From Escallonia rubra (lineage: Eukaryota > Streptophyta > Magnoliopsida > Escalloniales > Escalloniaceae), in the NCBI GenBank assembly GCA_033065855.1, contig JAVXUO010002923.1:252001-316000 (forward strand): a stretch of 64,000 bases of DNA, written 5' to 3'. The notes under the pieces are model-generated. The model did not search any database and was not told where the DNA came from. It was given only the letters and a program-made list of their open reading frames with translations. Below, one piece after another: positions 10,501 through 51,700 of this stretch; position 1 is the first letter of the stretch, and the number at the start of each line of letters is the position of its first letter. Made by a program: the position numbers and the translations under genes.

Positions 10501-10559
10501 ACCCCCGTCACCGACGTCCGGGCGTCACACTCCAACACTTCGCCGCGCCGCTGATACAG

Positions 10560-10860: not shown

Positions 10861-10899
10861 CTTGGTCATGGAACATGCTTCAACCCACTCTCCGGAGTG

Positions 10900-25669: not shown

Positions 25670-27428
25670 TAGAGATGTCAAACGGGCAAGGCGGCCCGCG
25701 CCCAGCCCGACCCGGCCCAAAAAAAGCCTGGGCCGGCCCGGCCCTATTATGAACAGTGTAGGCCCGAAATTTTAGGGACTTGGACTTGGGCTTGGACCAG
25801 GCCAAGGTTTCAGAAAAATGGCCCGCCCAAGCCCGGCCTTAAAAAAGCCCTAAAAAAGCCTAGCCCCGAAACAGGCCCAAAATTGGCCCAAACTCGGCTA
25901 TATTCCCCACTAATTCAAAAAATTCCACTTTTAACCCCCAACAACTATATAACGGCTAGTTTGGGGGGTATTTTGGTCCAAGTTAATTTCTTAAAATCTT
26001 TTAAGGTTTTTTACACTTTTACCCTCCCAACAACTATAAACGGCTAGTTGTTAGGGGTATTTTGGTCTTTTGTGAACTTTGAACTATCTAAAAATTCACA
26101 CCCTTCCTTTCTAATTTTTCACACAAATCTTCTTACTCTCTCTTATCTAAACATTCTACATTTCTACAAGCTTTGCTACTATTTTCCTCTCCAAATACTA
26201 CTCTTGCTAATTACTACTCTTGTTTATTAATTAGTACTTTTGCTAATTACTACTCATGTTTACTAATTACTGCTCGTGTTAAATTCTAATTACTAACTAT
26301 TCCTCTTATTCATTTGTTACTCTCTAATTATTTTGTTTACTAATTAGTAATTAGTGAATTCTTATTTATTAATTACTATTACAAAGTTATTTTTAATTAC
26401 TAACTCCGGCCAATTTTGAATTACTAATTACTCTTATTCCCTAGTTACTCTTCAATTCTTTTTAATTGTTATTTCTAATTACTTATTACTGCTCTAGTTT
26501 TATTTTTTCAATCTAGTAAAAAAGTTTAGCGTCAAATATGTCTGGACTACTAAAGAAATTCAGGCGTGGATCATCATCACGAAAAACACCACCACCAGGT
26601 CAAGCACCACCACCAGCACAAACACCACCACCACGGCCATCACGAACACCAATCCAAGCACCACCACAACCATTCGTTCCTGGACGAATGAGCTATAAAC
26701 TTTTATTGGCGCCATGTAGCAAAATCTGGAACATTTATTTAATGATGAAAGTGAGTTCAAGTATATCTTCCCCTTCCCCTTGTCTATATGTTTTGCCAAA
26801 TTAAAATCCTAGTTGCGGCCATGATTTGAAAAGAGGCTCCGTTTGACAAATGACAATGGCTCGATGACTAGACAAAATGTTAGTGATCAGAAAAATAAAA
26901 AAACATGATGTTAATATTGTAGATAATAATGTTTCGAGATTTTTAATATGAGTTAATGATTCCGACGATTGCAACCTCTTTGCAGTGGTCATGGTTTTAC
27001 AATAAAGATAAGGATGTGTATAGAAAAGGAGGAAGTAGACAAACTAATGAGAGAGTCACCCATGTTTAACTGCTAGTGCCCCTCTTGTGTAACGGGAACT
27101 GTATTACAACGTCAGTGGGGAACCTCTTACACTAGTTTCATTTGGCGATTGAGGCTTTTGATGTTGCTCCAAGTCTCCAACCATTTAATTTATAAATGTG
27201 AATAACAAGGAGTTAAGAATAGAGAAAAAACCACAAAAAAAATTGCGGCTGGAGCGGCCCAAGCCCGGCCCTAAAATATTGGGCCTAGGGCTAGGGCTTG
27301 GACTGGGCCCAAGTATACCAGTTTTCAGGCCCGGCCCGGCCCGGTTTTCACTTCTTTTGGCCCAATTTCGTTGGAGGCCCGTTGGGCTTGGGCTGGGCCG
27401 GCCCAAGCCCGGCCCATTGACATCTCTA
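25670..27428 (+). mobile_element. hAT element, internally deleted (copy 1)
   Basis: The ends are TAGAGATGTCAAACGGGC at 25670 and CCCATTGACATCTCTA at 27428, followed inward by GGCCCGGCCC-rich subterminal sequence in opposite orientation. The 8-bp target duplication is ACTATTGT (25662-25669) versus TCTATTGT (27429-27436), one mismatch. It encodes the start of the same hAT protein as the copy at 41925-44233 but lacks the BED finger and the transposase core. It is therefore a deletion derivative. Confidence 0.85.
26538..26804 (+). pseudogene. N-terminal fragment of a BED-type hAT transposase
   Basis: The frame starts MSGLLKKFRRGSSSRKT, followed by a Pro-rich stretch and PFVPGRM. This is nearly identical to the start of the hAT gene at 43131 (minus strand). 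After PFVPGRM the two sequences diverge and the frame soon stops. The BED zinc finger, catalytic core and dimerisation domain are absent, so no active transposase is made. The leader upstream (26040-26530) also matches the other copy. Confidence 0.75.
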
Positions 27429-31547: not shown

Positions 31548-31657
31548 GGGAAAATTGCGTAAAATATCCTTGTGGTTTGGGGTAGTTGCAAAAAGACCCA
31601 TCCCGTTACAAAAATTGCAAGAAGACACCTAAGGTTTAAAAAGTGTTACATCCGTCA
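31548..31657 (+). repeat. MULE1 left terminal inverted repeat
   Basis: 110 bp from GGGAAAATTGCG to ACATCCGTCA, matching the right TIR over its whole length with few differences. Confidence 0.95.
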
Positions 31658-31984
31658 ATAAATCCGTCTGTTTTAACCGCGTTTGTGGTAAACCCGCCTG
31701 AGTGGCAAGTGTCACTGCTAAATAATTTTTTAAATGTCGTTTTTGCCCCTGGATACCTCTTTGGACCAATATAACCGTTGCAAGCAAGAACCCTACGCAG
31801 GAAAAGATGCTCACAGAAAAATTGGTGCCAAAGAACTTTGTTCAGCTTGATTTTTAAGCTCAAATTGAGGAAATTGAAGGTATGAGACCCTGTTTTGTGT
31901 TCAAAGTAATTGTTTTCTTTTAATGTTCTTCTAGTGTTGTTTTTGCACACCAAGTGTTTGATGAAATGACACAATGGCTAGGTA

Positions 31985-32359
31985 ATGTCTTCTTCAAGCT
32001 CATCTGTTCAACGTGGGCATATGGTTGACATAAGATATTCATGGAAGCTTTGTCCTTGTGGTAAGAGAGCTAAGATAAAAGTTGTTGAAGATGAGAAGAA
32101 AGCAAGCTGTGGGAAGCTTTTTTATGTATGTGACAAAGGAGAATGCAACTTCTGGGCTTGGTGTCAACCCTATAATGCAAGCCAAGATGATAAGAGAGGA
32201 AGCATTAGGAGAAACTCTATGGGTTTAGGTGCTCAAATTTGTGGTTGTAGGTGTAATGAATTGGCTACCAAACTTGAAGGAATTGAAGCTATTGTGAAGT
32301 TTATGAAGTTGTTTATTATTGGGGGATTTATGTGTACCTTTCTTATGTTGTTTAAATGA
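31985..32359 (+). CDS. MULE1 second gene: GRF-type zinc finger protein with C-terminal membrane segment
   Basis: An intact 124-residue frame in a single exon. Residues 20-60 form a GRF-type zinc finger: CPCG (Cys23, Cys25), LFYVC (Cys49), then ECNFWAW (Cys54 and the aromatic box). Residues about 88-104 could form a short amphipathic helix, and residues about 105-122 (FMKLFIIGGFMCTFLML) are a strong hydrophobic, probably membrane-spanning, segment. It starts about 330 bp inside the left TIR, faces the transposase gene, and is probably driven by the left TIR. GRF fingers are known as single-stranded nucleic-acid-binding modules in some proteins; any role for this protein in transposition is inference. 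Plant genomes contain many GRF-finger genes annotated as hypothetical. Confidence 0.8.
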   Translation: MSSSSSSVQRGHMVDIRYSWKLCPCGKRAKIKVVEDEKKASCGKLFYVCDKGECNFWAWCQPYNASQDDKRGSIRRNSMGLGAQICGCRCNELATKLEGIEAIVKFMKLFIIGGFMCTFLMLFK

Positions 32360-32754
32360 ATATTTACAATGATCAATTACTTGAGGCATTGTTATGAAGA
32401 TTTAATGTTTATGCATAATGGTTATGCTTGTGTAATGTTTAGGCTGCAAAAGTATACAACATTTTTAACTGCACTCACAAAACTAATCAAATTTCTAAAG
32501 TTAAATGTATTCCAAAATGCTATCCACAATATTCCAAAGCATAGTTTACATGTTAATTTCCAAATGCTATACACAATGGACAATGGCCAATGCTACAAAA
32601 TGAATGGCCAATGCTACAAAATGGCCAACGCTACATTCTGCCCCAAGGTTTTTGCTACAAAATGGATAATGCTGTTGTTTTACAAAATGGTCCTATATAT
32701 ACCACATTCTGCCCCTATCAAAATAGTCCAAAAACACTATCATCACTCTTGTAC

Positions 32755-35700
32755 TCACTTATGCCCCTTGTCTCTTGCAGCCTGTTCTTTACTCATGTTC
32801 TTAGTAGCTTTGGCTATTGATGTAGTGCCTTTGGCTGCTTTTGATCCCCTTCCCAAAGCAGCAGCTGACATGGACCTTCCTCTGGTTGTGTCAGCCATGA
32901 CAACTCCTCCAGTGCTACCTTGGGGCCTTAGATTGGTTGGAGCTGTTGGGGGCCTCTGACTTACAGCTCCAGGTGGAACCCAGGTAGCTCTTGTCTATGG
33001 CAACAAAATAGAAAGACATATATTCTCAGAAACCATTTTTCAAACACCAAATCATAATCAATCTTTGCAGGAGTTGATCTGTACCTGTGAACCAGTTGTT
33101 TGTGGTCTTGGTGGAGGAGTTGGCTGTGAAACAGCTGGCCCTGGTGGAGGAGTGGGCTGTGAAATAGGTTGTGGCCTAGGTGGAGGAATGGGCTGTGAAA
33201 TATGTTGTGGCCTAGGTGGAGGAGTGGGCTGTGAAATATGTTGTGGGCTAGGTGGATGAGTTGGCTGTGAGACAGCATGTGGCCTTGATGGGGGAGTGGG
33301 CTGTGGAGGAGTAGGCTGTGGAGTGGGCTGTGGAGGAGTTGGTTGTGGCTGTGGAGAAGTTGGCTGTGCTACTGATGGATTGGGAAGTCTTCTTCCCTAA
33401 AGAGTTAACATTAAAAAAAAACCATATGAATACATGATCCAAATTATTAAGAAACTTGATCCAAATTAAACTTGAGAGGGCTTTTTGAAACATTAACAAA
33501 ATATCATATGGCTTGTTGAGACATTAGTAAAACGTCAGGTGCCTCTTTGCAACACAATACATTATCAAGGTGTTGATTTGCAACCACAGAAGGTGTTTAT
33601 TTGCAATAATGTTTTAACAGTGGGTGCCTTTCTAATGTAGACTCTCAGTCCCCTAAACATAACAGCACAACAAAAAAACACAGGCTTTGCATTACCAAAT
33701 TGCACATGTGATTAAGAAATTACCCTTTTCCTTTTGGCTGGAGTGACAGTACTGTCCACTGTCTTTTCTTTTCCTTTGCTTGTGTTGGACTGTAAGAAAA
33801 AGAAAACATGGCCCACATTAAGCAAATCACAAGAGTTTTATTTGGCCCAGAGAATGTTAAAAGAGTAAGATAACAAAAATTTGACTGGGCCACACCTGAT
33901 GAGGTTCTCTTATAAGTCTAGACTGTGGATGGGCTGGTCCTTTGCATGACCTTTTGTTGTGACCCCTCTCCAAGCATCTTGCACATGTGACATACTTCTG
34001 GCTCCTGCTCACTGTAGCAGGATCTCTAGGCTCATCATCACCTTTTCTCCTAAGCTTTTTGGGCCTGCCTGGTGGTTTTCTGTAGCTAGGTGGAGCCAAA
34101 GCATCCAAACCAGTGACCACCCATGCATTCTCACTTGGAACATGATGTATCATACTGCCATAAGCTCCCAAATAAACATCCTTGCTATAGCAATTGTCTA
34201 CATATGCTTCAGGCCTCTCTCTGTTCACAAATATGGCAGCCACAGCATGACAGCAGGGTATCCCAGTGAGATCCCACATCCTACAATTACAAGTCCTTGC
34301 AGCCAAGTTCACAATCCTAGTTTTATTAAAATGCTCCACCTCAAACTCCAGCTGACCAGACCAACTTGCAAAACAGTTCCTAGCTTCTGCCACATTACAC
34401 TCCAACTTCCTAACAATATTAGGACATATTGCACCCTCATATTTCTCCATCCCTTTCTTCTTTATCTGCAATCTGTTCATCAAATTTTTTCTTATCCATT
34501 CAAGCATGCTAACAATTGGCAAGTCCCTTGCTTCCATAATGTATGCATTAAATGACTCACTTAGATTATTCACAAGTGAATCACACTTGGCATGGGTACT
34601 GAAGTGGGATCTTGACCATTGACTGGGATGTAATGGTTCTAAATAATTCATAATTTCTCCATCTTTATCTAAATTCCTTAGCTTCCCAATCCAGTAATTG
34701 AAATCATTAACTGTTCCTACCCTGACAGCATTCCACAGATAGTCCTTCACCTCTTTACCACCTCATTTCTTTTAAAAATTTGCATACAAGTGTCTCATAC
34801 AAAATCTATGCTCTGTGGTAGGTAAGAGATCCTTAAATGACTCCACCAAACCTTTCTGTCTGTCAGAAATAAATACCAAGCTCTCACTACCCCCAAGATC
34901 ATCAATCAGTTCTGTCAAAAACCAAGACCAATTATCCCTGGTTTCTGCCTCAACAACAGCTACAGCAACTGGGAACATGTTGTCATTCCCATCCCTAGCC
35001 ACAGCAGACAACAATTAACCACAATAAAGGCCCTTTAGATGACAACCATCCAGTCCAATAAAGGGCCTGCAGCCTGCCAAAAATCCAGTTTTGTATGCCT
35101 CAAATCTAACATACACCCTCTTGAAAATAGGTGCCAGATCTGGACTTAGCCTAACTGTCTCAACTTTGAAACATGTGCCAGGGTTGTGCTTCTGCAATGT
35201 TGCCCCATAATCCCACAGTCTTGCAAATTGTGCCTTGGTGTCCCCCTTTAGTTGTTCTCTAGCTAACCTTTTTTCCCTATATATCTTATGCTTGCTTACA
35301 TTAGCAAACATGTCTCTATAAAATTCTTTTTTCATAGCCCCTACCTTCTAGTTGGGGTCATCTCTTAACTTATCCTTATACCTCTGTGCAAGATACTTAA
35401 CACTAATCAAATGGTTATTGTAGTCCCTCCCACACTGTGATCTGGTATAAAGGTCTTAATTTTCCATGTAGTGGTTCCCTGCATGGGAGAAGCATGAACC
35501 CTAAAGTCACAGTTCTCATATTTACAAACACATGTAATCATTTTGCTATCATTGTGCTGGTAGTCAAAGTCATACCCCTGTCTAATGCTCCAATCCTTAA
35601 CAGTAGCTTTAAGCACTTCCCTATTTGGAAACATCAAGCCAACCTGCAATGTTGGCCCATCCCTATGGTTCAAGTCATCAGCAAAAAAATCTGGCCACCT

Positions 35701-36905
35701 ATTTCCATCTTGATCTTCATCTGAGTCATGAACACTCATCAAATCATCTTCTTCCTCACCCTCAAAATACCAGTCTTCAGGGGGATCATTGCTATGACCC
35801 CTCTGCTTAGGGTTAGTGGTAAATATGTCATCATCTCCTGGCCCCTCTAAATCTTCACCCAACTCAGGAATTGTAGGGTCATCAGGCTCTGCACCATCAT
35901 CATCAGCATTCACACCACCACCATCAGTCCCTTCACCCTCAACATTTCCTTCACCCTCAGCATTCACACCACCCTCAGCTGTCAAACCACCATCAGTTGT
36001 CTGTTCACCAACAACACCAGTGTCTAACACACTCTCAGTGACACCGGCATTAGTATTCACACCACCATCAGTTGTGTGTTCACCAACACCAGTGTCCAAC
36101 ACACTCTCAGTGACACCAGCCTCAGTATTCACACCACGATCAGTTGTTTGTTCACCAACACTAGTGTCCAACACACTCTTAGTGACATCAGCCTCAGTAT
36201 TCACACCACCATCAGCATTTTGTTCACCCACCCCAGTGTTCAACACACCCTCAATCACACCACCAACATTTTGTTCACCAACCCCAATGTTCAACACATT
36301 CTCAGTCACACCACTTTGAGTACCTTGACCAGCCTCAGTAGCTACACCCTGAGTAGCTTCACCCTGAGTACCTTCACCACCCTGAGTAGCTTCACCCTGA
36401 GTACCTTGACCAAGATCAGGTGCTTCACCCTGAGTACCTTATCCTTGAATACTTTGCCCAACATGAGTAACTTCAACACCCTGAGTACCTTGCCCAGCAT
36501 CAATAACATCCCCATCCCCTATTTCCACATCACCATCACCTACTGGTGTAGACCCATCTCTTATTACAAGGTGGGGATGATTATTATCTACAACTGTTAT
36601 GGGATCCATGCCCCTTATGACATATATGACTACATTGTGACCATGATAATGGTACAATGCATCATTTAAACCCTTATCATCAAGTATTAACATCAACCCA
36701 TTGTTAAATGTCTTTCCAGGTATCCTATAAGTCATGGTGCTAGTAGCAGGTAATCCTAAACTCAAGCACATATCTAGAAGCTCCCAGTATGAAAGGTAGT
36801 CAGGGTCACATTCAAACTGTTCTACTTTGTCTCCAGTCCAAGACCTATTGGGTGGATCTGTAAAAACCCCCCATGATGAATTTCAATGGTGATTTTGCCT
36901 GACAT
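32755..36905 (-). pseudogene. MULE1 transposase (MuDR family), broken
   Basis: The start MSGKITIEIHHGG at 36905 opens a PB1-like N-terminal domain. An indel in a G-run near 36870 breaks the frame, which resumes at DPDYLSYWELLDMC. An acidic Val/Thr/Glu repeat region follows (about 35870-36430). Then come the MuDR DNA-binding domain (LMFPNREVLKATVKDWSIRQ, about 35640), the MULE transposase core with GLDGCHLKG (about 35055) and FISDRQKGL (about 34870), a SWIM finger (CNCRMWDLTGIPCCHAV, about 34260) and a zinc knuckle (CARCLERGHNKRSC, about 33950). Pro/Gln-rich C-terminal exons (33065-33400) follow, ending at a stop at 32755. Damage: a frameshift near 35420, and stops at about 35347, 35014, 34769 and 34760. 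It cannot encode a full transposase. Confidence 0.92.
33065..33400 (-). repeat. Repeated Pro/Gln-coding segment of MULE1 transposase C-terminus
   Basis: On the minus strand the units read SQPTPPPRPQHI with small variations. On the plus strand the repeat is GGTGGAGGAGTGGGCTGTGA, six to eight imperfect copies. The stretch forms a low-complexity C-terminal tail of the transposase. Confidence 0.75.
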
Positions 36906-37615
36906 TCTGCCAATTGAAAAACAAAGGAATAATTTAATAGAGTACTTGTCTAACCTAAAGCAACCTTTTTAACACGTGAAATCATTAAGAAACAATAGGG
37001 TTCAATATGGTGGGGTAAGGTTCAATATGGTGGGGGACAGAGGGACCACAAGCAATCAACAACACAACAAACTGAATAACTTTGTAATACAGAATAGGAC
37101 AATCGGTTGCATGCATGTGAATTGACAGAAACATATAATACACAAAATCCCTAGGCAAGGCCGAAACCTTAGATTACATAGAAACCCTAGAAATTTAAAA
37201 ATTCGTAAATTAACACAGAAACCCTAGATTGCACAGAAACATTTCCCAATATCACAAATTAAATATACTTTCGTTTGTCAAAATCACGAGTTCAACATAA
37301 AAGCATTTCTCAAAATAATAAAATTACCTGGAATTGCACTTAGTTTTGTGTTCGACTTCGTTTTTTATTTCCACCAGTTCCAAATCCTTCAGTTTATGAC
37401 ACCAATGTTCGATTTCGTTCCTGATTTGTGTCTTCCTTGTAGATTATTCACATTCTTTCAATTCGGTTTATGGGATCTTGTTAGAAAGTGACGGGTTGAG
37501 GAGAGAGATGGTGAGAATTCGAGTCAAAGGTCTTGAGTATGGTGTTTGACAAACGAGACCGATGTGGTTCTATACAGGGGTAGTTTAGGAAATTCCTTAA
37601 TTCCGTAACGGGAGT

Positions 37616-37725
37616 TGACGGATGTAACACTTTTTAAACCTTAGATGTCTTCTTGCAATTTTTGTAACGGGAGGGGTCTTTTTGCAACTACCCCAAACCA
37701 CAGGAGTATTTTACGCAATTTTCCC
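37616..37725 (-). repeat. MULE1 right terminal inverted repeat
   Basis: Mirror copy of the left TIR. The transposase leader lies immediately inside (36906-37615), so this TIR is probably its promoter, as in MuDR. Confidence 0.95.
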
Positions 37726-37734
37726 AAAGAAAAA

Positions 37735-38310
37735 AGGTGAATAGGTTTTTCAAATTGGGGATTAAACAATTGATGGTTGTACTCCACTCCCGTCACAAAA
37801 AGACCTAAAGAAGACAGTGTTACTTCTCTTGTGTAGTAGAGTATGTGCTTTTTTTTTGTCTCATACAAGAAGAGATTGATATTCGCACTCAACCTTTGAT
37901 TACATAAGTTCGCTTTGGCGCGAAAGATACAAGAGTGTCAGAAAAGGGCATGGAAAAATGTCTCTAAAGATTTTATTAACAAAAATAGATCGCGTATGGT
38001 GAAAAGTGTAGTGCGGTTATTAATTGCCTTCAATAATAGAAAAAGCATAAGCGTAACAGTGATAGAGATGACGTGGTGAAATAAAAACCTTTACCGCTTT
38101 CATCTAGTTTAACCCACCTCCCTGTTACACCAAATTATCTCTATCACCGTTCGAGTGAATTTTTTGCTTAATTAAGGTAGACATTGCTCAATGCTAGCTT
38201 TTAAAATTAAATCATATCGGAACACGCGAGTCAATACTAGAGAAAGTATATGAATTAAGAATCGGGAGTAAGGAATAATGATAAGTTAGATTCATATATT
38301 AGGACATCAT
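37735..38310. other. Short intergenic spacer with a possible small MITE
   Basis: No coding sequence. AACAGTGATAGAGATGACGT (about 38057) and TTATCTCTATCACCGTT (about 38135) form an imperfect inverted repeat spanning roughly 100 bp, possibly a small MITE. No target duplication was established. Confidence 0.35.
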
Positions 38311-39213
38311 TGTACACACAAAATTCGTGTCTAAACTGCGAGACAAGAAATAATCGCACAAAAATTTAATTTAATGATTTTTAAAGTAAAGGTTACACCA
38401 CTCTGTGATTTTTACACAATAAATGCAAATCCTCTAATTCGATCTCCGATTTGGACACGATCCAAGGGCTGAAATAGCTTGATCTTGAAACATGAATTTT
38501 GGCTTCTTCAATCTTCACGGTTGAAAGATCGTCGAAGCGGCGCTTGCTCGAAGGCTTCAAAGCTTTATCCCGAACAAGTATGTTGATCCTTGACTTGTAG
38601 AATCACTGATGTTGAAGGCGAATTCTTCTTCAATTTGAGGCGAAAGAGAAACTGATCTTTGTGACTTGAAAGTGCTCGATTGAAGAACGGCACTACGTTA
38701 GTGCGTATTGTTCTTCAAATGAAGCACAACCTGTGAGAAGACAACGTTTCGGTGGAGCTTAGGCCTTGATCGCGGAGACCATGTGTGTCCTGCTTTCCTG
38801 CCCCAAGCTCTCTATTTATAGGCAAGGTAGTGGGCTTAATTTCGGAAGGCCCATGACTTGAGGTTTCAATTTGTAATTAAAGAAATTTTGTCTCCCTTTA
38901 ATTCAATCAGGATTTCTTGATTAAATGGATCTTTATTTCCATTTAATTTAGAGTTTCTTTCTTTAAGTCAAAGTTGACTTATTTGAGTTTTATGGTAGCA
39001 AGACCACTTTTGGGCTAGACCAAATAATTTTATTTGGACTAGTTACTCTAATCAACTTTGGTTTGAGTCAATTATTTTATCTGATCCCAAGTCAGCACTT
39101 TGAACCCGCTTTTTCGCAACGTTGAATATTTAATCAGTCAATAAACTTTTAAATTATTGACTAAGCACAAATTTTCGTTGTCTACGATCATATTCATATT
39201 GTATTGCTCATCA
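38311..39213 (-). mobile_element. Probable solo LTR, 0.9 kb, minus orientation
   Basis: The plus strand reads TGTACACACAAAATTC at the left and TATTGCTCATCA at the right, giving TG...CA ends. Flanks ATCAT (left) and ATTAT (right) match at 4 of 5 bases. On the minus strand a TATA box (CCTATAAATAGAGAG, about 38820) precedes a plausible R/U5. There is no internal region or second LTR. Boundaries are my best guess; the LTR nature rests on the promoter and termini. Confidence 0.5.
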
Positions 39214-39273
39214 ATTATCATCATTCATAAAAGTCCTAAGTACTAAGTTGTATTCAATCAATTAAATTTTATT

Positions 39274-40271
39274 GGGCTAATTACACCTATGTCGCTGAGG
39301 TTATGGGGTAATTACAGTCAAGGACACAAAGTTTCAAAATTGTAACATTCCGTGACCAAAAGTGTTTCAAATGTATCACCCGTATCCATCCATCAGGGTT
39401 TCGTCCAAAAAGTGTACTTTTTTATGATGTCATCAATATATATTTTTAAAATGACGATACTACCCCTTATACTTTATTATGGTAAATACCCAATTTTCTC
39501 TCTCCACAATTTAAACCGTAGATCTGAAGTCACCGTCGACAGCCCCCCTCCGCCGCCCCACGCCGCCAGCAGCCCCCCTCGCCCACCATCCGGTAGAACC
39601 ACCCCACCATGCGGCAAGCCACGGCGCGGAAGTGCTCCTGGCCGGCGGTGTCCCAAATCTGGGCCCTGAACTCCTTGCCGCCGATCTCCATGCTCTGGGT
39701 CTGGAACTCCACACCGATGATGGCCTTGGAGTGCGGGTTAAACTCATCCTGGGCGTACCGAGACAGCAGGTTCGACGGATCATGTTCTGCCTCCAATGGG
39801 TCTGGTGCGACGAGTGTAGGGAGTGGCCGCCGCTGCCAGAGAAGGAGGAGGGGGGCGGCAGGCGTCGAAGACGATGCCGCAACGCTGAAGGTACTCGATG
39901 ACCATGTTCGGCAAGTTGCGCTATGGTGTACTCGTCGATTGCGGAGTCCTAGATGAACATTGAGGTTCGGCTTCCATCTAGTTCTACGGATACCAAGTCA
40001 GCGGCAATTCTGCCGGCGGCGTGGGGTGAGGTTGATTCCATGATTCCAAATTAGGGTTCCAAACTAGTAAAGTCTTTCTTTAAAAAAAAATTGAAGTAAT
40101 GGCATTGGAAAAGAAATAAGGTTCCAACTTAGGGGCAATACAGTATTTTCATTAAAACTGTTAGAGTTTTTAGGGTTCCGTTTGGTCAATGGACACAAGT
40201 GTAATTTGTCGAAATTATTGTCTTTGACTGTAATTACCCCCTAACCTCAGGGACATAGGTGTAATTAGCCC
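39274..40271. mobile_element. Pack-MULE carrying a captured Rab GTPase exon
   Basis: The termini are GGGCTAATTACACCTATGTC on both sides as inverted repeats. The TIRs extend about 50 bp with good similarity, and the perfect 9-bp target duplication AATTTTATT is at 39265-39273 and 40272-40280. It is a 998-bp element with AT-rich ends and a GC-rich interior (39530-40030). The interior includes a Rab GTPase fragment and no transposase, which defines a Pack-MULE. It ends 45 bp before MULE2 begins. Confidence 0.92.
39620..39796 (-). pseudogene. Captured RABA5-like Rab GTPase fragment
   Basis: The minus-strand translation gives [40 protein letters not shown] and [12 protein letters not shown]. This is the Rab region from just after the P-loop through switch I (with the G2 Thr replaced by Ile in KAIIGVEF) to switch II (the WDTAGQE G3 box). 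The EFNPHSKA…QSMEI wording is closest to plant RABA5 proteins. The P-loop, NKxD and SAK boxes and the prenylated tail are missing, and the frame runs into unrelated sequence on both sides. A further stretch at 39800-40045 may be a second captured piece; I do not recognise it. Confidence 0.85.
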
Positions 40272-40621
40272 AATTTTATTCTATGTTTCTAGTTTTGTAT
40301 TTTACATTATGTTTTAGGGTCAAATACACGTAGGTACCCTGGAACTACCACAAAGTCTCACTTAAGGGTCCCAAAGTTTAATTTTTACACATAAAGACCT
40401 GAAACTACAAATTGTCAATAAGTGAGTACATCCGTCCACTTTCTTAACGATTGAGGCTTTTCTGTCAGGGGCATTTTTGGGTTTCCATATTTGGGTGTTT
40501 CTCGCCTTTCACTGTTGACACTCTTCTTTCCCTCTCTTTCCATCTATTTTTCCCACATTTGCCTATCTTTACATACATGTTTCTATATATATACATACTG
40601 AGCTTTCTACAAAGGAGGGAG

Positions 40622-41042
40622 ATGGAAAATAATGAAGTGTATTGCTACTGCGGTAGGAGGGCCAGATCTGTGACCTCCTGGACAGCCAAAAACCCGGGAA
40701 GAAGATTTTGGGTGTGCTTGAAACCGAAGGTAAGATCCCAAAATTTGAATGATTTTGACTTATTTAAACTGGATGATAGGTAAGACCAGATCTGAATGCA
40801 TGTTTCAAGGTAAAGATTGTGGCTTTTTTGGATGGCGTGATCCATAGATGTGTGCAAGATTGAAGGAGGTTATACCTGGACTGCTGCGCAAGCTCAATTC
40901 GTTGGAGAGGAAGCAAAAAGCAGAAAGAAGGGCCTTCATAGTTGGGATATTGGTTTCTTGGTTTGTATATTGGTTCATGTATGCAAACTCAGGGAGTACA
41001 ACTAGGAAAGGGAAAGGGAATTTAGAGCTGATGCAGCTGTAG
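40622..41042 (+). pseudogene. MULE2 second gene: GRF-type zinc finger plus membrane segment, disrupted
   Basis: Exon 1 (40622-40729) encodes MENNEVYCYCGRRARS…RRFWVC, the first half of a GRF finger, and ends at a good donor (AAG then GTAAGA). The second half is at about 40810-40850 (KDCGFFGWRDP), followed by an in-frame TAG and then MCARLKEVIPGLLRKLNSLE, a Lys/Glu-rich helix and a membrane segment (FIVGILVSWFVYWFMYA). The visible splice acceptors do not put the second half in the GRF frame, and the TAG also interrupts it, so this copy looks inactivated. Architecture and position match the MULE1 gene at 31985: left TIR-proximal, facing the transposase. Sequence identity between the two proteins outside the finger is low. 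Confidence 0.72.
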
Positions 41043-41259
41043 GTGTTAGGATTAAGTTAGGTATGTAATGTATTAGGGTCTTGTGTATGCACCTTGAAAA
41101 TTTAGAATTTTGTGTATGCATTTTGAAAATGAATGAAAAAAGGTTTGCCCTATATGCTGTGAAATGACAAAAGCATGTGTGGTATGGTCAATTTAAGAAA
41201 CAGGGGAACAAAACATAGGACCACCCCTGCTCCTCTGTTTTATAAATGCACACTTCCTA

Positions 41260-41540
41260 ACACAAAATGCAAATGCAAAAAGAGATATGCCAAATGCAAA
41301 ACCATGCTTGCCAAATGCAAATGCAAATGCAAAACCTAAACTCACATGCAAAACCTAAACAACTCTACCAAATGTTGAACCAAACATCAATGCCAAACAT
41401 CAATGCTAAACCAAAACCCAAATCCAAATCCAATGCACATCCTGACAGTGGCTTAAATGAACCCTACCAAACATCACCAACCCTTTCAACTCACAAACAC
41501 AAGCCTCACAAATGCAATACCAAACAATCCAATTCCTGTC
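41260..41540. repeat. ATGCAA/CCAAA-rich simple repeat region
   Basis: Short degenerate repeats of AATGCAA and AAACCTAAAC, in the spacer 3' of the MULE2 GRF gene. No gene is seen. Confidence 0.6.
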
Positions 41541-41924
41541 AATGACAGACAAATAAATGGAAAAGAGAGCATTCTGTTTCCCAACCAAAATGTACAATTT
41601 ACAAAATAAAAAATTACATTGCATTAAGTCACAATATCTGTTACAGAAGATGCCAACATCACATGACTTAAAGCAAAAGTGCACACCAGAAAGCTTCACA
41701 ATTGTCTGAGCTTTAACAGGCATTACTGGACAACAACTTGCCTCCGCTGATCAAAAGCTGTACATTTATCTTCAAAAAGTGCTACACCTAACACAAACCC
41801 CTAAAAGATTGCTACACTACTAATTCTAACTTCACTTCTTCCCATTCCCTCTGCTTCTTGTTGTTACTCCATCCCTGGTAGCAGCTTGTAGAGGTGATAA
41901 AAAGGCATATTTCTTCCCCCTGCC

Positions 41925-44233
41925 TAGTGGTGTCAAAGGGCCAGGGTTGGGCCGGCCCAGCCCGGGCCCAGTGGGCCAAAAGAGAAAAAGGGCTGGGGCC
42001 GGGCCAGAGAGAATGGAAACCGGGCCGGGCCAGATTAATGGGGTATCTAAGCCCAGTCCAAGCCCTGGCCCTAGGCCCTATATTTAGGGTCGGGCTTGGG
42101 CCGGGCCCGGGCCCAATCCCTTTTTTTTTTATAAAAAATTTCTTGTTATTCAAATTAAATACTTTAATTGACATAATTTCTTGTTATTATGTAAGCAAAT
42201 TATAATTTAATAATTAGCGTATATATATTACCACATATATGTGTATACAAGCAAATAAAACAACTAAAAATCCCTAGGCACGCACACATATATGTAGTAA
42301 TATGTGTGTATACAATAAATATTTATAGCATTCAAATATTCAAACTGATGGAGTTAAATTGAAGATAAATTTATTCATAGGCCCTCCTCCTTTTATTCGG
42401 GCTTGAGACCGGCTGCTTGTAAATAGACAGGCAAAGTTACTTATTTTTTATTATATATATGAAAAAATATATATCTTGCTTGTAAAAACCTATTCGATAT
42501 ATATATATATAATAACAAATTCAACGAGACCGTCTCTTTGTTCTTGCTGATTATAAACAAATAACTTACCGTTAAAGGATAACTGCGTTTGGCTAGGTTC
42601 GATGTGGCCGCTTCGAGGTGCACACATAGGGTAGTGCCTGTTAAGATGTCCATTACCAGAACCAGTGGTAAAAAATTTAGTACAATACTTACATCGAGCT
42701 TTTCGGGCGCCGTCCACCGTAATTTCATCAAAATGATTCCAACACTCGGTTTTTTTTTTCACCTTTTGGACTTCTGGCTGACTACTGGAAGTATTGCTCG
42801 GCCCTTCTCCATCACGACTGCCCATCGGGTTAACATTATGCCACGGAGTAGTAGCTTCGCCAACCGAGCTGCGTCCTTGACTATAATGCGGGGGGTCTTG
42901 TGAAGGCGTGTATTCAAAATCTGGAATATTTTGATTGAACTCCCAATTGGCTTGGGTATCTATCATACAACCTGTACTCATTCGTCCAGGAACGAATGGT
43001 TGTGGTGGTGCTTGGATTGGTGTTTGTGATGACCGTGGCGGTGGAGCTTGTGCTGGTGGTGGTATTTGTGATGATGATGATGTTTTTCGTGATGATGATC
43101 CACGCCTGAATTTCTTTAGTATTCCAGACATATTTGACGCTAAATTTTTTTACTAGATTGGAAAATAAAATTAGTAATATTAAACTAAATGCAGGAATAA
43201 GAGCAGTAATTACTAATTAGAAATAACAATTAAAAAGAATTAAAGAGTAACTAACGAATAAGAGTAATTAGTAACTCAAAATTGGAGAAAGTTAATAATT
43301 AAAAAGAATTTGGTAATAGTAATAAATAAATAAGAATGCGCTAATTACTAATTAGTAAACAAAAGAATTAGAGAGTAACAAATTAATGAAAGAAGTAGGT
43401 TAGTAATCAGAATATAGGAAAAGTAGTAATTAGTAAACGAGAGTAGTAATTAGCAAGAGTACAAATTAGTGAGTAATAATTAGCAAGAGTAGTAGTTGGA
43501 GAGGAAAATAGTAGCAAAACTTGTAGAAATGTAGAATGTTGAGATAAGAGAGAGTAAGATGATTGGTGTGAAAAATTAGAAAGAAAGGGTGTGAATTTAT
43601 AGATTTTTGAAAGTTCACAAAAGACCAAAATGCCCCTTAAAACTATCCGTTTATAGTTGTTGGGGAGGGTAAGAGTGTAAAAAACCTTTAAAGAGTTGAA
43701 AAAATTAAGTTGGATCAAAATACCCCCCAAACTAGTCGTTATATTGCTGTTGGGAGGATAAAAGTGGAATTTAAGGAAATAATGGAGAATATGGCCGTTG
43801 GGGGAGAGGGGGGGGGAATCTGATTTGAAATTTTATTGAAGCCAGCAAGAGAATGGCCTAGAAAGGGCTAGAGAAAGGGCCTAAAATGGGCTAGAAAAAG
43901 AGCCGAAAAAGGGCCTAAAAATCGGGCCTGATTTAGGGCCGAAAAGGGGCTGATTTCGGGGCCAAAATCGGGTCAAACCCGGGCCAGCCCTAAAAACGGG
44001 TCAGGGCCTAAAAAACGGGCCGGTTTCGGGCCAGCCCGTTTTTTAGGGCTTGACTCGGGCTTTTTAGGGCCGGGCCGGGCCTGGCCTGGATAATTTTTTG
44101 GGATTATGTGGCCTGGTCCAGAGCCCTAAAGAAGTGGGCCGTCACTGTTCACGTGAAGGGCCGGGCCAACCCAGGCAAAAAATGGGCCGGGTCGGGCCAG
44201 CCCGCGGGCCGCCCGACCTTTTTGACACCTCTA
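41925..44233 (-). mobile_element. hAT element nested in MULE2 (copy 2, internally deleted)
   Basis: The ends are TAGTGGTGTCAAAGGGCC and, at the right, GACCTTTTTGACACCTCTA, with GGGCCGGGCC-rich subterminal repeats. Flanks CCCCTGCC and CCCTTGCT look like a decayed 8-bp duplication (two mismatches). It carries the first exon of a BED-finger transposase on the minus strand with a leader matching the hAT copy at 25670-27428. The catalytic region is absent, so it is a deletion derivative. Confidence 0.85.
42571..43131 (-). CDS. BED-type zinc finger exon of a truncated hAT transposase
   Basis: The start MSGILKKFRRGSSSRKT at 43131 is followed by a Pro/Ser-rich linker and then, at about residues 128-175, a BED finger (WNHFDEITV, ARCKYCTKFF, HLNRHYPMC). 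The exon then reads QTQLSFNG up to a donor-like GTAAGT near 42570. In intact hAT elements this exon precedes the RNase-H-like catalytic region and the C-terminal dimerisation domain. Neither is found between 42570 and the element's end, only AT-rich sequence. If expressed it could yield a DNA-binding-only protein; this is inference. Confidence 0.75.
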
Positions 44234-46351
44234 CCCTTGCTTCTGTGCAATGGTTGAGGGCACTGCACAAAGGCTGGATGTGCATCAGTAGCAGTTTCTC
44301 TGGGGTGCTTGACTATGTAGGTCCATAAGAGCCTGCAAATGTGTGGACCTGCACAGGGTGTGTTCAGTGGTTAAAAATGTGTTTCAAGTAAAAACTACAC
44401 TGTGGTTGGGCTTGTAGGGTTTACCTGAGGTGCATTGGAAGATGCAGTTGGATTTTAAGTGGAGCTCCTGAGTGTATTTCTTTGAACCTATATTAGTGAA
44501 CAAAAGGAAATTATGCATACTAATGATGGTCAAGTATTGAAAAAAATTAGGATATGCAAAGTCTCACTTGAAGCTTTTTTCTTCTCATGTGCCTAGCTGC
44601 TCTGTCACTATCATGTGTTGCATCTGTATCTTCATCAATTGGTGGTGGCTGGCTTAGGTATACTGTGGTTGGTTCTTCTGTCACTGGTGCTGCTCCTGGT
44701 GGTTCTGGTGCTGCTCCTGGTGCTGCTGCTGGGACTGAACCTCCTACTACTGCTACTGCATCTCTTCATGGTTCTGCTTGGCTTGATCTATGTACACTCC
44801 TGCTGCAACTTCTTCTGTTGTGCCCCCCTTTCCCACAGAGTGTACACTTATAATGTCTATTAGATCTAGGGATTTTGTTTGGGTGTGAAGGCTCATCTGC
44901 ACTCCTTCTTCTAAGTTTTCTAGGCCTGCCTGGTTGTTTGTGGAAGTCTGGTGGCAAGATTGAGGGCAAGCCACATTTTGGCCACATATCAAGAGAATCC
45001 ATGGGGCTTATGATGTGTTCATATGCTTTCTTGAAGGTTGATACCCTGTAGCAAGCATTGACATAATTCTCTGGCAACTCCCCTTTGAAATGTAAACAGG
45101 AAATGACATGGATGTAGGGTATACCACTCAAGTCCCACTTTCTACATGTGCAACTGTGGTCCACAATATCAACCCTATACCTTTCACCCCCTACACAATT
45201 CACCTCAAACTTGCCACTCACAGAATGTGATGGAATACAGCTTCCACTATCCACATTTCTATCAAGTTCTGTATCCTTGGACATATATCTCAGGTCCATT
45301 TTTCAGCCAACTCCATTTGTTTCTGCAGCCTATTCATTAACTGAACCCTAACACTTTCTAGCATTGTCAATATTGGTTGATCCCTTGATTCAAGACTTCT
45401 GCTATTAAATGACTCACACATGTTGTTGCATACCATATAACACTTGGGGAATGTGTTGAAATGGGATCTTGACCACTGATGAGGTGGCGTCTCAATTAAC
45501 CACCTGTATGCCTCTTGACTAACCTTCTTAAGTTCTTCCATCCAATGCTCAAACTTAGGAATTTGACTAGCCTTAGCAGCTTTCACCAACAAATCATGCA
45601 AGTTCTTCCCTTTATGTCCAGCTCTCTTGTAATTCCCAAGCAGATGTATCACACAGAACCTGTGGTCTGAGTTTGGGACTGTGGATTCTAATGCAGTCAC
45701 TAATCCTTTTTGCTTATCACTCATAAATGTCCATGCACTCTGGTTTACCATGCCTATATCATCTTTCAATAGCTGTAAGAACCACTCCCATGAATCCTTG
45801 CACTCTGACTCAACCACATCATATGCTAAAGGGTACATTTGGTTGTTAGGATCCACCCCTACAGCACACAACATCTGCATATGGTTGGGCCCTTTAAGGC
45901 GGCAGCCATTAAGCCCAATAAGAGGCTTACATGCAGCCTTGAAACCAGCTTTTAATGGCCCTAGGCAGCAATAAAATCTCTCAAACTTTGGATTTCCTTT
46001 AGATATGCTACCCTCAACACATTTGACTACACATGTGGTCCCAGGGTTCAATCTTTTTAACTCTGCAGCATAGTCCCACAGCCTTGAAAACTGCTCAACT
46101 ATTGTCCCCTCAACAAGTTTCATAGCCTTTTTCCTTGTTTTGTATACCTGAGCCCTAGAAATATTCATCACCACATCTTTCATCACAGTTGACTTGAAGG
46201 CAGTTACAAGCAACTTAGGGTTTGTCCTAAAAACATCAATGTATCTCTTGGACATCCATCTAGAAGTCACATGCTTACTTTTGAATGATCTGTTGCATGT
46301 ATGCTTGTTAACTAAGGTTTTTACTTGTAGACTGTCATGTCCTCTAAACCT

Positions 46352-46352
<1 letters not shown>

Positions 46353-46419
<67 letters not shown>
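46353..46419. repeat. (AT)n microsatellite inside the MULE2 transposase frame
   Basis: About 33 AT units. On the minus strand it reads as alternating Ile-Tyr and keeps the transposase frame open between ATCTWL and SRFRGHD in the MuDR DNA-binding domain. Confidence 0.97.
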
Positions 46420-46420
<1 letters not shown>

Positions 46421-46959
46421 CCATGTACAAGTTGCACCTTCAGGGTTCTCGGGTTTACAACATGCTCTAAGTTTCCATTTACTATTCTTTACAAATTTAA
46501 TTGGTCTTCCCTCCCTAATGGCATACATCTTGATGGCATCTCTTGCCTGTGTATGGTTACTAAAAATCACTCCCAACTCAAATTTTGGATGCTCCATGGA
46601 ACTCTCAGCATTAAACTCTGCAAAACCCAATCCATTGTTTACTTCATCATCAGATGAACTTAATGCAGGTTGTATATGTCCACCAGAGAAACAATCATCA
46701 TCAGATGCAGCATCCCTCCTCATAACACTTTTCCCCTTCTCATTCCCCTTCTCAAGTAGGGTACCAGCAAACTCTGCAGCTCTGCTATGTTTGTATCAAA
46801 TAAAAGGTCATCACACTCAGACCCAAACTCACTGTCATCCATTTCTTCATAAGACCTGTCACTTTGACTGTCACTGTCAGCTTCCATGATTGGTCCACCA
46901 TGAACACCCACCTCAGTTTCCATGTTTACATTTTCCCCCTCATCACCACTGTCTCCCTC

Positions 46960-47540
46960 AGTTTCCATGCCTAAAGGCATGTTGACATCCCCCCTCATCA
47001 CCATTATCCCCCTCTGTTTCCATGCCTAAAGGCCTCTCAGCATTTCCTCCCCCATCACCATTGCCCCCCTCTGTTTCCAGGCCTAAAGGCCTCTCAGTAT
47101 TCCCTCCACCATCAACATTGTCACCCCTTGTTTCCAGGCCTAAAGGCATGTTGACATTCCCCCCTCATCACCATTGCCACCCTCTGTTTCCAGGCCTAAA
47201 GGCCTCTCAGCATTCCCTCCCACATCAACATTGCCACCCTCTGTTTCCAGGTCTAAAGGCCTCTCAGCATTCCCTCCCACATTAACATTGTGACCCTCTG
47301 TTTCCAGGCTTAAAGGCCTCTCAGCATTCCCTCCCACATCAACATTGTCACCCCCTATTGGCCTCTCAACATTCCCTCCCCTATCAGCCTTGTCACCCAC
47401 TGTTTCTAGGCCTAAAGACCTCTCAGCATTCCCTCCCCCATCAGCCCTGTCACCCACTGTTTCACTGCATGGAGGCATGTCAGCACTCCCTCCCAAGTCA
47501 GCCTTGTCACCCACTGTTTCACTGCCTGAAGGCATCTCAT
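46960..47540 (-). repeat. 57-bp coding minisatellite in MULE2 transposase
   Basis: CTGTTTCCAGGCCTAAAGGC recurs with a 57-bp period (for example 47013, 47070, 47184, 47241). Each unit codes for 19 residues of the type GGNAERPLGLETEGGNVDV. About ten units are present, and some are altered to a PSGSETVGDKAD-like version near the left border of the PB1-like domain. Period slips and frame changes occur at the distal units. Confidence 0.88.
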
Positions 47541-48409
47541 TATTCCCTCCACCCAAATAAAAACCAACTCTCATGTCATTAGGAATAACTCTACCATCAT
47601 CATCTAACTCTTCTATGACCACTGAAGTTCTTCCATGTACATCTTCTAACCCTTCAAGATGAGTTTCATAATACTCATAAAACATATCCTCCTCAGACAC
47701 TTCTTCCAAATACATTTCAATCTCTCTGTGTTCAGGTATAAAGGGGCACATTTGAACTAATTCACTATCAGTTTCAACTCTAACTAACCCAGACTCTAAG
47801 TCCTTCCCACATATTTTGTAATAAAATTTGGTATAGCCTTCCAACCCAATTTCTTCACACATTTTTCCTAACTCAATCATTGACATGCACTCCTCATCAC
47901 AGTAGTCAATGTATCTAACATGGCAAGGGTCATACACTTTGTGAGGTCTCATGTAAAAATGACCCCCAAACATCAATTTTATAGTAAAGAAGGTGGAGCC
48001 TTTCCCTGCATAAAATAATTGCACACATGGGACCACCATTAACACCTATATCACATCCTAGCACGTTTTTACATAGAACACAATATTACATGTATCCATT
48101 ACTCGTTACATACATCACATTTTTCATATCACATGCATATACATTACTGGTATACGTAAAATCGTACTCTACTATCATCAATTAAGGTTAAGAGACAAAT
48201 GACACTTACTGTATAATGGTTGCCCATGGTCGTAATCCTCAACGATCCTTATCTCCCAAGACATTGTATGATTCTAGTTCGAAACTAGGGTTTGGATTGC
48301 GATTTGGGGTTTCTGGTACGAGATTAGGGTTCAACGAAATTCTTTTAGGGATTTTAGGTTAAGTGAAAAGGTTTTGGCAATTAAAGCTCCATTTTTGCAC
48401 ACGGCTTTT

Positions 48410-48554
48410 GAAACACCCAATTATGGAAACCCAAAAATGCTCCTGTCGGAAAAGCCTCAATCGTTAAGAAAGTGGACGGATGTGTAAAAATTAAATTTTG
48501 AAACCCTTAAATGAAACTTTGTGGTAATTTCAGGGTACCTACATGTATTTGACC
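48410..48554 (-). repeat. MULE2 right terminal inverted repeat
   Basis: Reads GGTCAAATACATGTAGGTAC inward on the minus strand and matches the left TIR (40317-40501) apart from a 36-bp gap. It should hold the transposase promoter and now forms the upstream flank of PEX12. Confidence 0.92.
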
Positions 48555-48564
48555 TTATGTTTTA

Positions 48565-48776: not shown

Positions 48777-51700
48777 ATGTTGTTCCAGGTGGGAGGGCAA
48801 GGGACTCGTCCCACTTTCTTCGAGATGGCCGCCGCACAGCAGCTCCCTTCCAGTCTCCGAGCCGCCCTCACCTACTCCCTCGGCGTAATGTTTCGATTAG
48901 GGCTCGGATTTTCATTTCATTTGCTTGACAATCCTTGCATTTAAACAGTTAGACTGATTGTTCAGAAAATTTCACTTGCAGGTGTTGGCGTTAAGAAGGC
49001 CGTTCCTCCACAGAGTGTTGGACTACGAAGACGAGTTTTTCGCACTGCTCATGCTTGTCCTTGAAACCCATAGCTTACGAACTACAGGTAGAAAGAATCA
49101 ACGACACGCATACACTACACGCACTCGCAGGTGTTTGTGTTGTGAGTGCGTGAGTGTTCTTTTATTATCTATCTTGGAAAGAGGAATTTACTGTTGCAGT
49201 TGCTGTATCTTCTTTTGATTTCAGTTTGACTGTTTGCGAAGTCCTATGATAGATTTTGGTTTATGTGAACGATGAATTGAACTCATAGCTCGATCCTAGA
49301 TTGAGCGAGTACAGTTTGGCAAGTCAAGCTAGGGTAAAAAAACATGAGTAAAGCCGCTATAGGAACTCGCAGAAAGTCATATGGGAAAATATAATGGGAT
49401 GGAGGGATTGAGGGAGTACTTGTTGGAATTGGGTTTATTTCCAAAGCATACAGTTTATTTTCGTCTGTGCAACTAACTTACTGAAATACTAAGCACCGTT
49501 TTTATCTTGATATTTTAAACTTACAGTGACCAGCTGCCGAGTATTTGCAGCTTGATTAATAATTAAACCTTCAGTAAGGTCTTAGGTTATAAAACAATCA
49601 TAGTGTAGGGCGTCTGCGTAATTCTCTCAAAGAATCTGGAAAAGAAAAATCTCACCTTCCAGAAGTTGACCATCTATGTTCACCATCTTCATTGTCTGAA
49701 TATTTGGGACTCTACCAATGGAATCTGAAAAGACTTCTGTTTGACCATTGTGGTGACTATATGGCTCGAAGATGGTTGATTATGACAGGTGTAGCTGTCG
49801 GTTAAAGGAAGAGAGTTAAGAGGGAAGTAGAAACAGGGCTCTAGGAGAAACAGAGAGATGGTGGTTTAGGGAGGGAGAAAATCAAGGACTTACGCATATA
49901 TTTAAATGTGTTAGTGCATGCCTGTATGTGCAGGTGCCTGTTTGAGCTTGTGCATTTCCACGTATGTAAACATTAAACAAGAGAATTGGAGCAGCACAGC
50001 GTATGAGGCTCTGACTACTGCTGGGTGTTGGGATGGTTTGATAATTAGATAAATGCAACCTTACATGTGCCACTGCACATAGGATTTTTCGGCTTTCCTG
50101 AGTCGAGCAACCTTACCCCTTGCTAAGTGTTGCCCTCAGAATTGAGTTTGTGTTCAGCTTGAATTGTTGTCACAACCTAGGCTGCATTGTCATCATCCAT
50201 GTTATTTGCGCTAATCACTAGCAAAATAACAACCTCAGCTGTTTAACTATCCACGACGGCCCTCCCTTGTAGTTTACTGAACTCAACTAGTGCCTTTGCT
50301 ACAATCTTGTTTGGTTGGCTACATGAGTCCTTTTTTTCCGGCTTCTTAGTTAAAAAACAGTGTTTCTCGCTACTTCTCTTAATGTTATACTCCTACCCCA
50401 TCAAATTGACGCAAATCACTTTTTTGTCTCTGGGAAACAAAAGCCCACTTTGGAATATAACCAAATTATCGTGGCAGAGCAGTTGTCAGTTTTTGCCTAG
50501 CATTAAATTTATTTTGTTGTTTGCATGTTTTATAGACAGGTCTCCAAGCAGAGACTTGGTTTCTTTTTTGTGATAGTATACCTTGTATTACATGGGTTCC
50601 GCCCGCTATTGGGTGATCAAATAAATGTAGTTGCTGTACTAGCGGGACGGTTAAAGCTCTCAAGTTTTAAATTCTCAAATAGGATTGATCTGTTGTTCAA
50701 GAATAGAGGGAGTGATGGAAAAATCAGTTCACGATAAATATCTTCTTCTAAACTTCTTTTGCGACGAAATAGGTGAAGCCTCAAGAAAGGTTTTTTTTCC
50801 AAAGTGATAGCTATAATTTGCAATCATCGAACACGTTGAATGAACGTAATTTGACAAATACTTAATGCAGTCTTAAGCTCTACAATGGTTTGTAAAACAG
50901 TCCCCAAGTTAGCCACCCAGAAATTTGGCCGAACAAAAAGTTCTGCTAAGTAATGGAGCACTTTTGCCTTCTTCCTAATCAAAATATTAACAATATTTTC
51001 TATTGAGCTCAAATTGCTGGGTCTTCATATGTAGACTCATTGCTTAACTCATTCTCTTGTATTCATGCAGATGCTTCTTTCTCAGAGTCTTTATATGGTT
51101 TACGAAGGAGAGCAGTTACAATAAGAATAAAGAAGGAAAATAGTCGTTCAGGTGCGGGCGACAAAATTCATCACTCTGGATTGGAGAAGCACCAAAAAGT
51201 TCTCTCAGTTGTATTTTTGGTAGGATTTCTTCTATCAGTCAGCAATGAAATTCAAAAAAAGAAGAAAAAGGACAAATAAAGAATCAAAATCTGTTATTTG
51301 GGAGACCTCTATGTTTGTCGTGAGAAAAGTCAACTCTGAAGCTTAGTATCTCTCTTTTAAATGGATGAATGACCAATGTGATGTTTTCGAACTTCCACTC
51401 TTTTTACATGGGTAAAACAAATCATACTTTTTTCAATCTTTGACAGTAGATGAGATCTACCCTGTTCGTCAGTGGAGTTGATTGAACTATTTCAACACGT
51501 GTAGTGGAATACCATATTGGTTGATCTTATTTCCCTCAATCAAGAATATGAACTTACTGTTGTTCAGTACGTATTTTGATTTTGCAGCTTGTCTCATTCC
51601 TGCATACATCTGTTTGATTTATTAGGCGTTTACTTAATAGAACGAACTGGAGGAAATCCAAGTAACTGGGCCATATAAGGCAAAAAACTCTGAGACACGG

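Follow-up and report, generated by a model that had tools for sequence, protein, structure and literature searches.

A GRF zinc finger gene facing the transposase in MuDR-type Mutator-like elements of Escallonia rubra

The window analysed here, a stretch of 64,000 nucleotides from contig JAVXUO010002923.1 of the Escallonia rubra genome assembly (GCA_033065855.1), contains two Mutator-like elements (MULEs), MULE1 and MULE2, which lie in the same orientation and each bear a minus-strand transposase with a MULE domain and, opposite to it, a plus-strand gene for a GRF-type zinc finger protein with a hydrophobic C-terminus. The explanation favoured here, to which as a whole we give a probability of roughly 0.6, is that within this genome a broad lineage of MuDR-type MULEs has the GRF gene as its conserved second gene and as a helper. 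Because of the genome-wide layout described below, it can be regarded as almost certainly a conserved accessory gene encoded by the elements themselves; that its product is a membrane-tethered helper binding single-stranded DNA (ssDNA) is put forward tentatively, as a possibility suggested by the sequence.

A survey of GRF sites and transposases was carried out in the assembly from which the window comes (566 Mb in 3222 contigs), the sole plant genome surveyed. GRF sites were sought with the Pfam family (149 matches, best 150 of 345 candidates scored), with the GRF gene of MULE1, GRF1 (150 matches, best 150 of 296), with exon 1 of the MULE2 gene, GRF2 (150 matches, best 150 of 440), and with genes from loci elsewhere in the assembly, denoted by L numbers: that of L042 (at least 160 matches, best 150 of 568), exon 2 of L075 (at least 151 matches, best 150 of 325) and exon 2 of L076 (92 matches, all 134 of 134 candidates scored). 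Merging of these lists gave 566 distinct sites, leaving out second fragments of included sites and six weak separate matches, which lay on contigs without any of the transposase matches. Transposases were sought with the MULE domains of MULE1 (T1, best 150 of 1454 candidates) and MULE2 (T2, best 150 of 1692), and were paired with GRF sites by coordinates within 8 kb, convergent pairs being counted as facing. A facing GRF site was found for 128/150 of the T1 domains, 96/150 of the T2 domains and 181/244 of their union, with a median gap of 2474 bp between GRF site and MULE domain in the union, and for 15 of the 17 closest relatives of MULE2; about 0.6 per 150 transposases would be expected by chance with 530 GRF sites. 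None of the 244 had solely a non-facing site, the arrangement being that of the convergent second gene of maize MuDR. An earlier note on this DNA had proposed that the GRF protein is a conserved accessory of a MULE lineage and not an accident of two copies, a view that these counts support, and the outcome that it named as fatal, most copies lacking the gene, is not what the genome holds. As a control, the top 150 of 3309 candidates from a search with the Pfam MULE family were used, many of which have open frames of 777-783 amino acids and none of which overlaps T1 or T2; by the same GRF lists no facing GRF site was found for any of the 150, and two had a GRF site in another orientation (Fisher 4.7e-58 for union against control, with copies treated as independent although they are not).

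Apparent negatives were inspected at one locus per group, and all three loci possess a GRF gene with a hydrophobic tail: L075, whose MULE domain is 71% identical to that of MULE1, L076 (54%) and L077, which comes from a near-identical group of 958 amino acids in the MULE2 list. L075 and L076 were reused as queries, so that their groups are counted as positive, and the group of L077 is still counted as negative. A group of 60-73% identity, initially taken to be GRF-less at 3/47 with the first two GRF lists, rose to 40/47 and then 41/47 with later lists; the early count was too low because introns and divergence had concealed the gene. Some negatives, for example C1289:1218 (minus strand), lie too close to a contig end for a partner to show. 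When six loci of different score groups were taken from the GRF side, a facing transposase within a pair of terminal inverted repeats (TIRs) was found in 5/6, and the sixth, a shorter TIR element, L039:1114-5036, keeps a GRF gene with one stop and has no transposase match. In seven copies approximately 305 to 730 bp separate the end of the element from the start of the GRF gene, the transposase gene starts toward the opposite TIR, and the two genes run tail to tail. For L040 the longest inverted repeat (1-413/6144-6553) was rejected as its TIR, and the element was placed at about 700-9749, with an internal insertion. Not every GRF site is a MULE gene, because at L009/L011 two GRF exons adjoin a CCHC knuckle, an arrangement which we take to resemble that of TOP3A, presumably a further cellular GRF protein.

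In the window, MULE1 (31548..37725) is bounded by a 9-bp target site duplication (TSD), AAAGAAAAA, at both ends, and its left TIR (31548..31658, plus strand, 111 bp) is 95% complementary to its partner on the right (37615..37725, minus strand). GRF1 (31985..32359, plus strand) is an intronless gene of 124 amino acids comprising a GRF finger with cysteines 23, 25, 49 and 54, a linker and a C-terminal hydrophobic segment at residues 107-123, and it matches the Pfam GRF family (PF06839) with an E value of 3e-8 and 34.1 bits, against a gathering cut-off of 25.9. The transposase (33857..36771, minus strand) is decayed into pieces separated by stops and a frame change, in which SWIM (33857-34750, PF04434, E 2.7e-9), MULE (34772-35014, PF10551, 2.4e-14) and DNA-binding (35407-36309, PF03108, 4.9e-11) domains all pass the Pfam cut-off. 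With these three diagnostic domains, TIRs and a TSD within 8-11 bp, MULE1 is a MuDR-type element of the Mutator superfamily. GRF1 is indeed a single open frame beside a transposase with stops, as the earlier note had observed; its further hint, that GRF1 might be maintained independently of the transposase, is not supported, as several relatives have open transposase frames of at least 900 residues and the decay is in the MULE1 copy.

MULE2 (40317..48554) has the TSD TTATGTTTTA at both ends and extends beyond the range that the earlier note covered. Its left TIR (40315..40501, plus strand) and right TIR (48410..48557, minus strand) align, gaps included, over 187 columns at 72%, with two blocks of 88% and 95%. 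The transposase (44766..48045, minus strand) consists of a core with the MULE domain (45290-46723; PF10551, E 5.3e-16), a C-terminal piece (44766-45299) and an N-terminal piece (47140-48045), with a PF03108 match of 0.0041 that is under the cut-off, and by PF10551, TIRs and TSD this is also a MuDR-type element of the Mutator superfamily. About 65 bp of the core frame (46354-46418) are an (AT)n run, through which the frame stays open as an Ile-Tyr repeat. Exon 1 of GRF2 (40622..40729, plus strand) encodes the first three finger cysteines and has a GT donor at its end; its open reading frame scores 23.8 bits in Pfam GRF, slightly under the cut-off, and 18 of 149 other genome matches, among the best 150 of 440 candidates scored, are at least 83% identical to it. 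A presumed intron of 80 bp (40730..40809), positioned as in L075 and L076, puts exon 2 (40809..41042) one base out of frame; this exon encodes the fourth cysteine, a W-x-D-P motif, a coil-like stretch and the hydrophobic tail. GRF2, whose finger is split by the intron, was correctly recognised as a gene but is probably a broken copy, because the 80-bp intron of its relatives gives a frame slip of one base and an in-frame TAG lies in exon 2 at 40845-40847. The convergent GRF gene is thus present in both elements, together with TIRs, TSDs and a MuDR-type transposase; the TIRs were also rightly described as unrelated, blastn finding no match that connects the MULE1 pair with the MULE2 pair, and the transposases as diverged, their cores being 37% identical. 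The ends of both elements are alike in an initial GGG and an A/T-rich stretch.

An alignment of nine GRF proteins shows the same order of GRF zinc ribbon, variable linker and C-terminal hydrophobic segment throughout, with C23, C25, C49, C54, W59 and P62 (GRF1 numbering) invariant, at identities to GRF1 of 16-79% across the aligned sequences and of only about 16-45% between families. The proteins of other loci exceed the Pfam cut-off in 7/7 cases, as does that of L077, and the matched finger stretches (approximately 30-45 codons) from the Pfam GRF search are free of stops in 139/149. Against the PDB, the finger profile finds the GRF domain of NEIL3 (7jl5, 2.9e-14; 7omk, 1.2e-13), followed by ZCCHC4 (0.0022) and an AP-lyase entry (0.031); phmmer with GRF1 alone gave no match in the PDB, and the coil-and-tail part of the profile matched VAMP2 at a chance-level 0.2. 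The similarity to NEIL3 supports the suggestion in the earlier note that this is a nucleic-acid binder, and the finger would be expected, by analogy, to bind most likely ssDNA as NEIL3 does (PMC9266487, accessible text). In 9/9 proteins the strongest hydrophobic 17-residue stretch lies 0-18 residues from the C-terminus, with a mean Kyte-Doolittle value of 1.88 to 2.82, and some linkers are coil-like as judged by eye. The hydrophobic segment of any one protein is suggestive, shuffled residues equalling the GRF1 value in 62/2000 cases and the GRF2 value in 33/2000, and it is the recurrence in 9/9 which constitutes the evidence; a single such segment near the extreme C-terminus is, in terms of hydropathy, the pattern of a tail-anchored protein, and the tail would be expected to sit in a membrane. 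A GRF finger with a hydrophobic C-terminus, as first proposed, therefore holds for both proteins of the window, but the membrane anchor read into it is a hydropathy call.

Conservation of the coding stretch is most readily seen between MULE1 and L043, in which the GRF coding sequence is 88.8% identical as against 75% for the 5' flank and 59-66% for the 3' flank and spacer, the transposase domains being 87-92% identical. The ratio of non-synonymous to synonymous differences per site (pN/pS) within the MULE1 subfamily is 0.36 (45 non-independent pairs of 10 copies), and synonymous exceeds non-synonymous change when three independent pairs are pooled (Fisher 0.0034), of which L040-L044, with a ratio of substitution rates (dN/dS) of 0.41, is the sole pair significant individually (Fisher 0.0036). 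For the transposase, dN/dS is 0.13-0.20 in MULE1-L043 and, for the young pair L040-L044, 0.97 on the largest piece with few changes, so no constraint is visible there either. Of seven further copies of the L042 type, six show no amino-acid difference and the seventh differs at ten codons, six of them non-synonymously; such near-identical copies therefore point to recent spread. Neutral evolution of the GRF gene, the second outcome that would have spoken against an accessory role, is disfavoured by the pooled pairs but less clearly by single pairs and young copies, and constraint on the gene, for which the older comparisons speak but of which some of the young show nothing, is best described as weak or not yet clear-cut.

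The history of the gene is also recorded in its intron, which occurs at a matching place in GRF2 (the donor), L075 (80 bp), L076 (81 bp) and, by eye, L077, the last three genes being split a few residues past the third finger cysteine; many GRF exon matches end or begin at this place (query 32-35), and GRF1 and the genes of L040-L044 are intronless. Over seven elements, identity in GRF and in transposase is correlated (Pearson 0.91, exact permutation 16/5040). In L040 and L044, by comparison, the transposase half is 97.7% identical and the GRF half 73% (synonymous contrast 6e-11), and judged from these figures the two halves are of different age, in a recombinant or gene-converted MULE; in MULE1-L043, synonymous changes are fewer in GRF than in the transposase (p 0.003). 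From this unequal divergence of halves it follows that GRF and transposase parts were swapped between related elements, and an exchange of GRF halves would fit with a part that is needed but exchangeable.

On the favoured explanation, the GRF protein would be a helper made by the element for its own propagation: the hydrophobic tail would insert into the nuclear envelope or endoplasmic reticulum (ER), the protein would oligomerise through its linker, and the finger would hold the ssDNA of the excised element or donor gap and so aid reinsertion or gap repair, a MURB-like role filled by a protein that is presumably different from MURB. If true, ssDNA intermediates or element RNA would be held at the nuclear envelope or ER, and GRF would to our knowledge be the first known membrane-tethered accessory protein of a DNA transposon.

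Several observations weigh against this explanation and should be considered with it. In the survey, 63/244 transposase matches are without a detected GRF, of which one was inspected (L077, in which the gene is present) and 62 were not; a non-facing GRF site accompanies the facing one within 8 kb in 6/244; and the zero of the control, of which no locus was inspected, depends on capped GRF lists made with queries from this lineage and with Pfam, which a very diverged gene could escape. The seven elements give a Spearman coefficient of 0.28 (p 0.22), which is not significant, and their GRF and transposase trees put L041 at different places. As to selection, pN/pS between the two MULE1 subfamilies is 0.69, four copies of the second subfamily have 12 non-synonymous and 0 synonymous changes summed over 6 pairs, L040-L017 likewise has 12 and 0, and the GRF dN/dS values of MULE1-L043 (0.77) and L041-L039 (0.67) are not significant. 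When the residues of each protein are shuffled, 0 to 113 of 2000 orders equal the tail segment in hydropathy, and a single-sequence AlphaFold model of GRF1 is poor (pLDDT 54.6), with a C-terminal helix at residues 93-122. Lastly, for the extra gene (ORFR) of the Abermu MULEs, the existence of rice elements without it led the authors to suggest that it may be of little importance in transposition (PMC9168764, accessible part).

The main rival to the helper role is that GRF is an anti-silencing factor, a counterpart of VANC, whose finger would bind element RNA or DNA at membranes and dampen small-RNA production or methylation. VANDAL MULEs do bear an extra gene of this kind, the anti-silencing vanC (PMC6446971, accessible part), GRF halves are exchanged between elements, and the contrast in MULE1-L043 between GRF (dN/dS 0.77) and transposase (0.13-0.20) would be expected under conflict with host defence; a high dN/dS is, however, also compatible with weak constraint. 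Sequence cannot choose between these two roles, and we consider the anti-silencing one unlikely. To the same degree improbable is a soluble nuclear cofactor, in which the C-terminal hydrophobic helix, instead of anchoring the protein in a membrane, would pack within a dimer or against the transposase. The segment is short, shuffles reach the real value in 62/2000 for GRF1 and 113/2000 for L043, and the helix of the poor AlphaFold model would suit such packing, yet a near-terminal position and high hydropathy in 9/9 proteins, despite unconserved residues, are typical of anchors. That a host GRF fragment was captured by a MULE in Pack-MULE fashion and has since spread as a roleless passenger is very improbable: gene capture is common in MULEs and the window itself contains a small MULE carrying part of a Ras-type GTPase, L039 retains GRF without a detected transposase, and GRF selection is unclear for two pairs and lacking in certain young copies, but the gene keeps its place and orientation in 181/244 relatives and in families with GRF proteins so little alike, the finger matches are mostly stop-free and the entire protein is kept, intron included in several families, and the coding stretch diverges less than its flanks.

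Further features were noticed in the window. The small MULE just mentioned (39274-40271), a Pack-MULE immediately before MULE2, has a 9-bp duplication, AATTTTATT, and a minus-strand Ras/Rab-type GTPase fragment (Ras E 1.7e-14). Two copies of a repeat, inverted relative to each other, lie at 41925-44233 and 25670-27428, with parts 84-92% identical and outer parts 68-77%; judged by a fragment of a BED finger (E 0.00098, slightly under the cut-off) encoded in the copy within MULE2, this copy is probably a hAT-like element inserted in MULE2. A PEX12-like peroxin gene, of which the first exons occupy 48777-49070 (Pex2_Pex12 E 8.7e-7, exons joined by eye), begins approximately 220 bp past the right end of MULE2, which places MULE2 in the promoter region of that gene. 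Elsewhere, 10001-12000 has 62% GC against 26-45% in the rest of the window, with internal repeats at 10904-11560, and open frames at 53629-54998 resemble pieces of a Copia-type polymerase by eye.

The helper explanation also bears on how plant GRF genes are annotated, as it would suggest that among the GRF sites of a plant genome, several hundred in number, many are transposon and not host genes. In peanut, twelve GRF zinc finger genes with differential methylation are treated as genes (PMC6293580, accessible part) and, if the GRF protein is an ancestral helper in plant MULEs as considered below, such genes, listed as ordinary ones, would often be transposon genes; in wheat a GRF zinc finger family is placed under miR1135 (PMC5413045, accessible part), and a legume survey of nucleotide-binding leucine-rich repeat (NLR) genes has GRF and MULE-type domains in unrelated rows (PMC11734081, accessible part). 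A literature search, with small coverage of subscription papers and with Repbase excluded, found no paper connecting GRF fingers with MULEs, and the term GRF is absent from the accessible part of a MULE review (PMC6446971).

Known systems share one or another feature of the GRF gene. The cellular GRF proteins NEIL3 and APE2 have the same finger (NEIL3 profile match 3e-14), but they are enzymes with catalytic domains, whereas the MULE protein is a stand-alone finger with a hydrophobic tail. Pack-MULEs likewise have a non-transposase gene between MULE TIRs; however, theirs are copy-specific host gene fragments in elements that have lost the transposase, whereas the GRF gene is common to families, is alike in position and has a transposase alongside, L039 being the exception. 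VANDAL/Hiun elements, with vanB and vanC, are also plant MULEs bearing extra genes, and differ in that their TIRs are missing or short and degenerate and that VANC is an anti-silencing protein (PMC6446971, accessible part). Maize MuDR (mudrA/mudrB) is closer, with two convergent genes, TIRs, a 9-bp TSD and the same kind of transposase (accessible parts of PMC6446971 and PMC9168764), and MuDR without mudrB makes no new insertions (PMC9168764, accessible part). The closest parallel in print is the uncharacterised ORFR of the Abermu MULEs, present in barley among other plants, which have a MuDR-type transposase, TIRs and this extra open reading frame antiparallel to the transposase, in type II between the transposase and the 3' TIR (PMC9168764, accessible part). 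ORFR changes more rapidly than the transposase (Ka/Ks < 1) and, in the same part of that paper, has no domain assigned and no similarity between distant species, whereas the GRF finger, here compared with ORFR by description, is recognisable in every family examined. A doubtful proposition would go further: a major branch of the MuDR-type MULEs of plants would have had the tail-anchored GRF protein as its helper from the start, and ORFR would be that protein. The second genes of two-gene MULEs have so far been unexplained, MURB and ORFR being without assigned function (PMC6446971 and PMC9168764, accessible parts), and with a domain that can be recognised, and relatives of it whose structures are solved, that function becomes testable. 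Two-gene MULEs are thus already known, whilst a conserved second gene that joins a GRF finger to a hydrophobic tail appears to be new.

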